Position numbers and translations under genes: made by a program
Origin: Oxalobacteraceae bacterium AB_14
GTDB lineage: Bacteria; Pseudomonadota; Gammaproteobacteria; Burkholderiales; Burkholderiaceae_D
NCBI GenBank assembly: GCA_000381565.1
Contig: KB906724.1
Span: 1,431,802-1,495,801 of the forward strand
Length of the DNA stretch: 64,000 nt
Direction: 5' to 3'
Notes under the pieces: generated by a model
Seen by the model: only the letters and a program-made list of their open reading frames with translations
Database searches by the model: none
Told to the model about the DNA's origin: nothing
Shown here: piece by piece, positions 32,557-35,784 of the stretch
How positions within the stretch are numbered: the stretch's first letter is position 1
Layout: every line of letters starts with the position of its first letter

Positions 32557-33858
32557 ATGAACACCTCTGATAACAAAGCCACCCTATCGTTTTCCGATGG
32601 CAGCCCATCGGTAGAATTCCCGATCTACAAGGGCACCGTCGGTCCCGACGTGATCGACATCCGCAAACTGTACGCCGGCACCGGCAAGTTCACCTACGAT
32701 CCGGGCTTCATGTCGACCGCGGCATGCAATTCGTCGATCACCTACATTGACGGCGACAAGGGCGAGCTGCTGTACCGCGGCTACCCGATCGAGCAGCTGG
32801 CCGTGAACGCCGACTTCCTGGAATCGTGCTACCTGCTGCTGAACGGCGAACTGCCGAACAAGGTCGAGAAAGCCGAATTCGTGGAAACCGTGACCAAGCA
32901 CACCATGGTCCACGAGCAGATGCAATTCTTCTTCCGCGGCTTCCGCCGCGACGCCCACCCGATGTCGGTGCTGGTCGGCACCGTCGGCGCGCTGGCCTCG
33001 TTCTACCACGACTCGCTGGACATCAACGATGCCAAGCACCGTGAAGTGTCGGCCATCCGCCTGATCGCCAAGATGCCTACCCTGGTGGCGATGGCGTACA
33101 AATACTCGATCGGCCAGCCGTTCGTGTACCCACGCAACGACCTGTCGTACAGCGCCAATTTCATGCGCATGATGTTCGGCAATCCGTGCGAAGAATACAA
33201 GGTCAACGACGTGCTGGTGCGCGCGCTGGACCGCATCCTGATCCTGCACGCGGACCACGAGCAGAACGCATCGACCTCGACCGTCCGTCTGGCCGGTTCG
33301 TCGGGCGCGAATCCCTTCGCCTGTATCGCTGCCGGTATCGCCTGCCTGTGGGGCCCTGCCCACGGCGGCGCCAACGAAGCGGCACTGAACATGTTGAAGG
33401 AAATCGGCACCGTCGAGAACATTCCTGCCTTCATCGCTCAGGTGAAAGACAAGAACTCCGGCGTCAAGCTGATGGGCTTCGGTCACCGCGTGTACAAGAA
33501 CTTCGACCCGCGTGCAAAACTGATGCGCGAAACCTGCTACGAAGTGCTGGAAGAGCTGGGCCTGCAAGACGATCCGCTGTTCAAGCTGGCGATGGAACTG
33601 GAAAAGATTGCACTGAACGACGAGTACTTCGTTTCGCGCAAGCTGTACCCGAACGTCGACTTCTACTCGGGCATCGTGCAATCGGCGCTGGGCATTCCGG
33701 TGTCGCTGTTCACCGGTATCTTCGCCATGGCCCGCACCATCGGCTGGATCGCCCAGTGGAACGAAATGATCGCCGATCCGGAACAGAAAATCGGCCGTCC
33801 ACGCCAGCTGTTCGTCGGTTCGACGACGCGCGACGTCAAGCCGCTGGACCAGCGTTGA
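32557..33858 (+). CDS. gltA: Citrate synthase
   Basis: This enzyme condenses oxaloacetate and acetyl-CoA to citrate. 433 residues, the type II hexameric form regulated by NADH in Gram-negative bacteria. Catalytic histidines are in [20 protein letters not shown] and [14 protein letters not shown]; the catalytic Asp is in [18 protein letters not shown] before ATG 32557 supports that start over the upstream open frame. A terminator follows. Confidence 0.97.
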
Positions 33859-33881
33859 TCGCCGGTCTTTGCGTCAAATAG

Positions 33882-33907
33882 AAAACGGGCTTCGGCCCGT
33901 TTTTTTA
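33882..33907 (+). terminator. Rho-independent terminator after gltA
   Basis: Perfect stem AAAACGGGC / GCCCGTTTT with a TTCG tetraloop and a T-tract. The A-rich 5' side makes it usable from both strands, so it may also serve the convergent membrane-protein gene. Confidence 0.92.
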
Positions 33908-34327
33908 TGCGTCGGATTCGGCTTGCGGCTGGCGGCGGTCAGGCCGCACCACCAGCAGCCACCAGACCAGCACGCCCAGCGTCGCCTGCGGCAGGTTGAA
34001 CAGGAATTTGTCGATGACCACCTGCTGGCGCTGCGGCCAGGGCAGGTTGGCGGTGTCCGCGATGATATTGGTGTGATACAGGCAAGCGCCCAGCAACAGC
34101 ACCATGGCGATCGCCCAGATCGATGGCAGGCTGGTGACCCGGTGGCGCAGCAGCGCCGCGACCGGATAGGCCACGATCAGGCAAGCGAAATAGGCGAACA
34201 GATTGGCCGGCAAATCCTGCAGGCGGAAGTGCGGCAGCAGGATGGGCACGGCGCAAATGGCCAGCGCGAGCATGACGGCGATGACGGGGTGAGGGCGTTC
34301 GGGCCAGTGGTTGAAGCGGCTGATCAT
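33905..34327 (-). CDS. Membrane protein of unknown function
   Basis: I do not recognise this 140-residue protein. It has about four hydrophobic segments (AVMLALAICAVPILLPHF, NLFAYFACLIVAYPVAALL, SIWAIAMVLLLGACLY, ATLGVLVWWLLVV) and a short charged C-terminal tail (RPDRRQPQAESDA). It converges on gltA. Its upstream gap holds a long inverted repeat shared with the BlaI gene's 3' side. Confidence 0.7.
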   Translation of the reverse strand: MISRFNHWPERPHPVIAVMLALAICAVPILLPHFRLQDLPANLFAYFACLIVAYPVAALLRHRVTSLPSIWAIAMVLLLGACLYHTNIIADTANLPWPQRQQVVIDKFLFNLPQATLGVLVWWLLVVRPDRRQPQAESDA

Positions 34328-34375
34328 GAGTAAGGCTCCGATGAATGGGGCCTCATTGTAGTAGAAAGCAACGGA

Positions 34376-34458
34376 GGGTCAAGTCTGACATTCGGACACG
34401 GTCTTAGCCGTAGCGAGACGATAAGGTTGAGCTTGTGTCCGAATGTCAGACTTGACCC
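34376..34458. repeat. Long inverted repeat (24-bp perfect arms, 35-nt loop)
   Basis: Arms at 34376-34399 and 34435-34458 are exact complements, beginning GGGTCAAGTCTGACATTCGG on the left. The loop itself contains a weaker CTTA/TAAG pairing. There is no T-tract on either side and no open frame, so it is not a standard terminator. It may be a small non-autonomous mobile palindrome or a cruciform-type site. Confidence 0.8.
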
Positions 34459-34463
34459 CCGCT

Positions 34464-34841
34464 CTATTTCTCCTGATCCAGCAGCGCCTGGATTTCCTCG
34501 CGTTCCTTCTTGCTGACATGGCCGCCGCGCAGCGCGGCCAGCACCAGCGCCTTGCCGGAGCCGGAGAAGGCTTTCTGGATCAGCTCTTTCAGCAGATTGG
34601 TTTGCAGCGAATCCTGCTCCTGCGCCGGCGCGTAGACGTGGGCGCGCTGGCTTTCGTCGCGGGTCAGCAGGCCTTTGGTGTGCATCACCTGCAGCAGCCG
34701 CAGCACCGTCGCGTAGTTCATGTCGGGACGCGCCTCCAGCGCCGCCTGGTGCACCTGCTTGGCGGTCGCCGGTCCGCTTTGCCATAACAGGCGCAGCATT
34801 TCCAGTTCGGACGGGGTGGGCTTCGGTGGGGCAGTGGTCAT
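34464..34841 (-). CDS. BlaI/MecI/CopY-family repressor
   Basis: A 125-residue regulator with the family winged helix (PTPSELEMLRLLWQSGPATAKQVHQAAL, then NYATVLRLLQVMHTKGLLTRDE) and a C-terminal dimerisation helix bundle (VLAALRGGHVSKKEREEIQALL). BlaI relatives are usually inactivated by a membrane BlaR1-type M56 protease encoded next door. No such gene is present here. A perfect palindrome in its promoter region suggests autoregulation. Confidence 0.9.
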   Translation of the reverse strand: MTTAPPKPTPSELEMLRLLWQSGPATAKQVHQAALEARPDMNYATVLRLLQVMHTKGLLTRDESQRAHVYAPAQEQDSLQTNLLKELIQKAFSGSGKALVLAALRGGHVSKKEREEIQALLDQEK

Positions 34842-34863
34842 GATGGTGATGGAATGCGGGACA

Positions 34864-34893
34864 ATGCATCTAGAATAAAATATCTAGATGCAT
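34864..34893. promoter_or_regulatory. Candidate BlaI operator
   Basis: Perfect 11-bp inverted arms (ATGCATCTAGA / TCTAGATGCAT) flank an 8-bp AT-rich spacer in the 79-bp gap between the metallo-beta-lactamase-fold gene and the BlaI gene. It is the only strong symmetry near the BlaI start. Confidence 0.65.
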
Positions 34894-34920
34894 TTGTCTA
34901 GTTCTACCGCGCTTTTTACA

Positions 34921-35784
34921 TCACCACTTCATTTCACCCTTGGCGACCTTGGCGCTGGTTTCCAGCGCGCCGTTCAGGCCGGCGTTCGGATACAGCTCCT
35001 TCATGCGGGCGATCAGCGCGGCCGAGTTGGCTGCCTTGGCCGTCTCGGCTTCGAAGCGCACCAGGTAGTCGCGGGTGAAGGCGATGCTGTCCGGCGTCAG
35101 CGCGGCGCCTTGCTTAAAGTGGCCCGGCACGATGGTGGCCGGCTTCAGCGCGGCGACGCCGTCCAGGGTCGCCAGCCACTGCTTGCGCGACTCAGCCGTT
35201 TGCGTATCGGCGGTCCACACATGCAGTTCGTTGAACAGCACCACGCCGCCCACCACCGCCTTGATCGACGGGATCCACACGTAGCTGCGTTCCGGCGTCG
35301 CGCCTTTCAGGCCTTCGATCTTCAAGGTCTGGCCTTCCAGCTTGATGGTGTCGCCCTGCAGCGGCTGCGGCACGATGATGCTCTTCGGCGCGTTGTCTTT
35401 CAGGATAGGTCCCCAGAACGCCACCTTGGCGTCCTTCTTCTTCTCGATGCCGGCGATGGTTTGCGGCGTGGCGACGATCTTCGCGTCCGGGAAGGCGGCG
35501 TGGATCACGTCCAGGCCGAAGTAGAAGTCCGGGTCGCTATGGCTGACGTAGACCGTGGTCAGGTGCTTGCCGCCGGCGCGGATCCGCTCGACCAGCTTGA
35601 GCGCTTCGCCGCGCGAGAACTGGGCGTCGATCAGCACCGCATCCTTGGCGCCGCTGACGATCACCGAGGCGACCGGGAAGATGGCCGCTTCGCCCGGATT
35701 GAACACTTCCAGTGTCAGCGGTGCGGCGGTGGCGCCGGCAACGGTGGCGGCGAGGGCGGCGGACAACAGGCTTTGCTTGATCAT
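34921..35784 (-). CDS. Exported metallo-beta-lactamase-fold protein with atypical metal motif
   Basis: A 287-residue protein with a signal peptide (MIKQSLLSAALAATVAGATA) and an MBL-fold layout: VIVSGAKDAVLIDAQ, then the metal loop, then VPGH late in the sequence. The usual HxHxDH motif reads H82-S-D84-P-D86-F87, so two of the three histidines are replaced. Metal binding may be altered, and hydrolase activity cannot be assumed. It is divergent from a LysR gene (104-bp gap) and upstream of BlaI, so two regulators frame it. Confidence 0.82.
   Translation of the reverse strand: MIKQSLLSAALAATVAGATAAPLTLEVFNPGEAAIFPVASVIVSGAKDAVLIDAQFSRGEALKLVERIRAGGKHLTTVYVSHSDPDFYFGLDVIHAAFPDAKIVATPQTIAGIEKKKDAKVAFWGPILKDNAPKSIIVPQPLQGDTIKLEGQTLKIEGLKGATPERSYVWIPSIKAVVGGVVLFNELHVWTADTQTAESRKQWLATLDGVAALKPATIVPGHFKQGAALTPDSIAFTRDYLVRFEAETAKAANSAALIARMKELYPNAGLNGALETSAKVAKGEMKW

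Follow-up and report, generated by a model that had tools for sequence, protein, structure and literature searches.

REPINs are described as inverted doublets that form one hairpin, with conserved ends, a variable spacer and a cognate RAYT, and compensatory changes in their spacers have already been noted (PMC3116915, excerpt). In the TIRtrons or TIRYTs, a Y1/HUH tyrosine transposase lies between inverted repeats with GGGGWSAS, and the TIR families are dispersed in some genomes as singles, dimers and clusters (PMC3733652, excerpt); most TIRYTs have been equated with subclass 2.1 of TnpAREP (PMC6006769, excerpt). Two TnpAREP groups have co-evolved with their REPs (PMC8266576, excerpt), and in what has been called an orthoswitch, REP classes differ beside orthologous RAYTs, with old copies proposed to persist and decay as new ones spread, by a mechanism on which the excerpted source offers speculation only (PMC3686654). 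The title of Higgins 1988 asks whether REPs evolve by gene conversion. Accordingly, the kind of element discussed below is already known, and the question that stands open is how the match between hundreds of dispersed repeats and a transposase is kept up. The group considered here offers the needed contrast, with the same sites across species, several RAYT types, changes in one arm and a short sequence. Paired switching of arms in place was not reported in the literature searched, a body of work that excluded most subscription papers.

The window, by which we mean the whole stretch of 64,000 nucleotides analysed, corresponds to C1:1431802-1495801 of a 7.03-Mb genome, hereafter the home genome. 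It contains a hairpin (Table 1) for which the initial annotation recorded an isolated, perfect inverted repeat with no T-tract and no open frame. The arms are indeed exact reverse complements of 24 nt each, separated by 35 nt. At up to 3 mismatches, the window holds just these 2 arms, and the arm appeared 0 times in 100 dinucleotide-preserving shuffles of it. The DNA fold of 34376-34458, in which the loop is also partly paired, reaches -32.3 kcal/mol (z -11.7) and the RNA fold of 34360-34475 reaches -68.7 kcal/mol (z -10.4), with 0 of 200 shuffles equal in either case. The lack of a T-tract is borne out by the absence of terminator-like sites within 33800-35000. Over the same interval, no Rfam family was matched at its gathering score; ten matches fell below that score, five of them miRNA models over the hairpin, and are read as chance. 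The hairpin is nevertheless crossed by an open frame, a 181-aa ORF (34324-34869, minus strand) in a frame different from that of the PF03965 gene it overlaps, and the description as isolated does not hold either, the hairpin being one of 16 doublets in the home genome.

Table 1. Positions in the window of the hairpin, its parts and the adjoining genes
Feature	Position	Strand	Remarks
Complete hairpin doublet	34376-34458		83 nt
Left arm	34376-34399	+	GGGTCAAGTCTGACATTCGGACAC; AAGTC, C-type copy of the end repeat of the RAYT
Loop	34400-34434		35 nt; inner stem partly degenerate (self-comparison, DNA fold)
Right arm	34435-34458	-	Inverted copy of the 24-nt unit of the left arm
140-aa ORF	33905-34327	-	Context; start 48 nt from the left arm
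BlaI/MecI-type repressor gene	34464-34841	-	PF03965, 4.3e-25; context, outside the element

The window copy sits between two ORFs, with the stop codon of the BlaI/MecI-type gene 5 nt from the right arm; the 140-aa ORF on the other side has no Pfam match at E 0.001. Directly upstream of the repressor gene lies a perfect 12-bp inverted repeat (34863-34894, AATGCATCTAGA / TCTAGATGCATT, 8 nt between), which, judged from its sequence and position, could be a candidate operator of that gene. A promoter-like site on the minus strand (34355-34382; TTGACC, 16 nt, TACAAT; 10/12) reads outward to the 140-aa ORF with its TTGACC inside the left arm, and by eye its spacing is shorter in Rugamonas aquatica.

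The search for further copies suggested in the initial annotation recovered 36 arms from the home genome at up to 3 mismatches, compared with 0 for a reversed-pattern control, so that the sequence is not single-copy. These arms make up 16 hairpin doublets, 2 singlets (L157 and L164) and one pair whose members are separated by 1 kb. Doublet length ranges over 75-84 nt, with 82 or 83 nt in 14 of the 16, and 12 doublets have identical arms, a number reached by 2 of 20000 shuffles of the right arms (mean 5.8). The match continues into the loop: in the 15 doublets that measure 80 nt or more, an average of 11.1 of the inner 13 positions match, compared with 9.7 for mixed halves, and the match is full in 8, whereas the window copy matches at 7 of the first 13 loop positions. 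The window copy is also set apart by an odd GGAG at its left edge, which the other 15 doublets lack. Its arm type (AAGTC) is found in 18 of the 32 doublet arms, and 6 of the 32 are exactly of a second, AGATC type; among 74 genomes of the genus, the home genome contains the AGATC 22-mer 9 times and three others contain it once each. A plasmid collection yielded no match to 34340-34475.

The distant pair of arms (C3:86597-87600) encloses a 285-aa ORF (L148:1116-1973) that matches Y1_Tnp at 2.8e-12 and the NCBIfam model REP_Tyr_transpos at 86.3 bits, above its cut-off of 80. Against PDB sequences, the only match of this RAYT up to E 1 is a weak one to TnpArep (4er8, E 0.019), and its C-terminal helix-turn-helix (HTH) is matched only below Pfam cut-offs. 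The end repeats of this gene are of the AGATC type, from which the window arm differs at 2 positions, and a RAYT homologue in Rugamonas sp. A1-17 (L102:6252-7103), downstream of a similar peptidase-like ORF, has window-type arms outside it. We compared 39 RAYT loci from 294 family genomes, namely 29 of 30 retrieved loci with matches at 1e-60 and 10 added loci; the truncated L190 was excluded, and L229, which lies at the end of a contig, was read separately. At all 39 loci, the best inverted repeat across the flanks (scores 11.5-44.5) exceeds the best of 10 shuffles. The repeats can be anchored on GGTCA at 35 loci, so that this motif itself is a product of the anchoring and the remaining positions are not; the base that follows is G at 31 of the 35. 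Flank repeats are 78.1% identical between loci and 95.6% identical between the two sides of a locus, the latter value being inflated by the choice of the best repeat, and repeat identity rises with RAYT identity (r 0.32, 0/5000 permutations, 36 of 39 loci usable). The HUH histidines are present in 39/39 of the proteins and the RYIVLNP tyrosine, which we take to be the catalytic tyrosine of the RAYT, in 38/39, and with the HTH below Pfam cut-offs these are traits of TIRtron transposases. Two of the 39 loci have an internal stop. Given a dispersed arm family and a RAYT enclosed by a pair of its arms, we conclude, with a probability of about 0.9, that the window hairpin is a non-autonomous, REPIN-like, RAYT-linked mobile doublet of RAYT end repeats. 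The palindromic mobile unit that the initial annotation had listed among its options is thus favoured by dispersed copies, by occupied and empty sites, and by the presence, within the same genome, of a transposase gene whose ends match.

Among described systems, the TIRtrons are the closest, the window family likewise consisting of inverted repeats around a Y1/HUH RAYT-like gene (PMC3733652, excerpt). Their GGGGWSAS is fitted by the GGGGTCAG of most RAYT flanks, whereas the window type, which reads GGGGTCAA in the right arm and GAGGGTCAA in the left, misses the last S. The families described here reach 119 core matches per genome (G245), and Massilia, Janthinobacterium and Herbaspirillum are absent from the main text of the TIRtron paper. 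TnpAREP subclass 2.1 has a C-terminal helix-turn-helix extension, a trait that the HTH matches below cut-off suggest for the protein here as well, when compared by description; in the excerpted account, however, subclass 2.1 genes have no REP-like sequences nearby (PMC6006769), whereas the flank repeats considered here recur as dispersed doublets. The likeness to REPINs lies in two inverted units that form one hairpin, in multiple copies (16 doublets in the home genome, 44 in R. aquatica), and in a cognate RAYT in the same genome that is flanked by units of the same kind. Unlike REPINs, these units have no GTAG-type tetranucleotide and read (C)GGGGTCA, and for several repeat types no fold is predicted when the arm stands alone: DNA folds of 14 single-unit types range from -5.5 to 0.0 kcal/mol, with 2 lacking structure and further ones no more stable than their shuffles. 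As in an orthoswitch, the repeats beside orthologous RAYTs change type and copies of the new type appear (PMC3686654, excerpt); the difference is that here both arms at old sites are of the new type.

Comparison of orthologous sites, another check proposed in the initial annotation, revealed both occupied and empty ones in relatives. The window site is occupied by an orthologous doublet in R. aquatica (G302), whereas G299, G308, G254 and G294 have no such element. With the doublet at the same place in R. aquatica, and the odd left-edge GGAG common to both, the recent arrival suggested earlier finds no support for the window copy. In BJB480 (G296, L224), the window site contains a different insert of ~370 nt, apparently with a short ORF. 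Elsewhere, site C1:1498484 is filled in G302, empty in G299 and occupied by unrelated sequence in G310, and C2:1371248 is filled in G302 and G296. Eight relatives could be compared at C2:1524382, of which G300 and G308 are empty and six are filled, with simple doublets in G302, G303 and G299 and clusters in G296 and G310. Across the six, all 15 arms that start with GGTCA equal a RAYT flank repeat of their own genome (22/22), the outer fourth arm in G310 being degenerate and missed by the GGTCA anchor; G303, G310 and G299 also carry other RAYTs with differing repeats. G089 (L255) has a hybrid doublet, one arm being equal to the repeats of the first of its two RAYTs and the other arm to those of the second; if hairpins are indeed rewritten to follow their RAYT, this doublet would capture two transposases at work on a single site. 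The home copy at this site is of the AAGTC type and not an exact match to the AGATC of its own RAYT. As for the empty sites, G300 has no RAYT at 1e-30 and G308 does have one. Apparent empty sites at named loci are mostly nested extra arms. No target-site duplication, the mark expected of a MITE of a DDE insertion sequence, is apparent at the sites compared, where the empty sites are those of diverged species.

The change of type in both arms is most evident in R. aquatica, for which 46 stretches yielded 44 doublets, with a contig-end doublet (C1:9-74) excluded. At position 18 of the arm, 23 doublets have T in both arms (T/T), 15 have C in both (C/C) and 6 are mixed, a mixed count so low that 0 of 100000 shuffles reached it; over the entire arm, 34 of the 44 doublets have identical arms (shuffled mean 18.3, 0/20000). 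The RAYT of R. aquatica has T at position 18 on both ends. Six of the 16 home doublets, including the window copy, have an orthologue among the R. aquatica loci retrieved, and all six are C/C in the home genome and T/T in R. aquatica. When named loci are added to the home genome, 24 R. aquatica doublets have orthologues, and these 24 divide into 13 T/T, 9 C/C and 2 mixed. The orthologues themselves are C/C in 33/33, a count biased because the loci outside the home genome were found via exact C-type arms. The home genome presents comparable cases of its own: both arms of L026 and of L166 read AGATC, where those of BJB476 and BJB480 read AAGTC; in L007, AGATC is confined to one arm, and L030 had no orthologue within the compared set. 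Over 15 distinct comparisons, the arm changes were 11 paired and 5 unpaired (16 rows, one locus counted double). The loops are a less uniform record. Unrelated copies have a baseline loop identity of 0.65 (sd 0.10, 95th percentile 0.83), with a maximum of 0.97 in a baseline that includes true orthologues, and loop identity alone is no proof of descent. Orthologous copies include more alike loops (0.97 for L001/L314, then 0.94, 0.91 and 0.91) and also several at 0.69-0.79, no closer than unrelated ones; in L013/L312, the loop identity is 0.71, and 26 of 43 other loops match better.

We propose that the unit, when single-stranded, would fold into one long hairpin, the ends of which the Y1/HUH RAYT of the genome would recognise, nicking the unit and moving or copying it. 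As the end repeat of the RAYT changes, resident copies may be rewritten in place: a repeat of the new type would first convert one arm, through gene conversion or strand exchange, and the other arm would then be corrected against the converted one through the hairpin. That dispersed hairpins track their RAYT by such conversion, without new insertions, is a suggestion drawn from sequence comparison, and we regard the odds for and against it as even. A switch in place requires copies identical by descent, for which the flanks, the left edge and some of the loops provide support. The main competing account retains the RAYT-linked hairpin and dispenses with conversion: old copies would have been lost, and new-type copies inserted or recombined whole at the same sites. 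Several orthologous T/T loops that differ as much as unrelated ones, five quite different arm types at the single site C2:1524382, and nested or clustered copies, which reveal elements landing on or beside others, are what this account leads one to expect. It fits less well with L026/L060, where flanks of 95-97% identity and an irregular loop 94% identical accompany changes at the same two positions in both arms, with the 97% identical loop of L001/L314, with single-arm changes (the 6 mixed doublets of R. aquatica and L007), or with the odd left edge that the window copy has in common with R. aquatica. We consider such whole replacement a serious possibility that falls short of an even chance. 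Tracking of the RAYT is itself imperfect, in that the window copy and most home doublets mismatch the repeat of their own RAYT and 9 of the 24 R. aquatica doublets with orthologues kept C/C; draft assemblies can be in error at repeats. If conversion in place is true, such repeat families would persist through rewriting in addition to insertion, and the reading of copy numbers and ages would change.

Two further explanations were considered. The hairpin lies just past the stop codon of the repressor gene, and the next ORF on the same minus strand starts 48 nt beyond it. This position would suit a regulatory role in RNA, with a 3' hairpin protecting or attenuating the blaI-type message, and REPs are reported to lie for the most part downstream of genes, with transcription plausible (PMC3733652, excerpt). 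Yet the dispersed copies in the home genome adjoin many different genes, according to rough ORF calls with many spurious overlaps, and G299, G308, G254 and G294 lack the hairpin at the window site. We therefore regard this explanation as unlikely, and an RNA role may be additional to a mobile origin, not instead of it. A stable long stem between two genes could also be an ordinary intrinsic terminator or a chance inverted repeat, both of which were rejected as very improbable: the stem has no T-run and its surroundings no terminator-like site, and chance would have to account for 36 related arms in one genome and for an arm that shuffling never reproduced.

The RAYT-linked doublet family extends well beyond the home genome. 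The exact 24-nt arm occurs in at least 117 stretches of named Duganella, Rugamonas, Pseudoduganella and Massilia contigs, and its 16-nt core in 30 of the 294 genomes of the family. Of these 294, 60 gave a RAYT match at 1e-60, comprising 18 of the 30 arm-positive genomes and 42 of the 264 others, a co-occurrence that is weak because just 8 candidates were scored in most genomes. Twelve arm-positive genomes gave no such match; a rescan of 7 of them, the other five being G012, G149, G232, G239 and G274 (one core match each), recovered only distant or broken RAYT copies. Among the rescanned genomes, G181 and G238 (90 and 14 core matches) have broken RAYT pieces, and G138 and G223 (48 and 23) have only distant RAYTs; these four families were perhaps orphaned after RAYT loss. 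The home genome contains a second, distant RAYT-like match (L168, C2:154855-158286; 31% identity), which is flanked by the inverted repeats TAATTGGGGACAGAGTGATG / TAATCGGGGACAGAGTGGTG, fitting GGGGWSAS.
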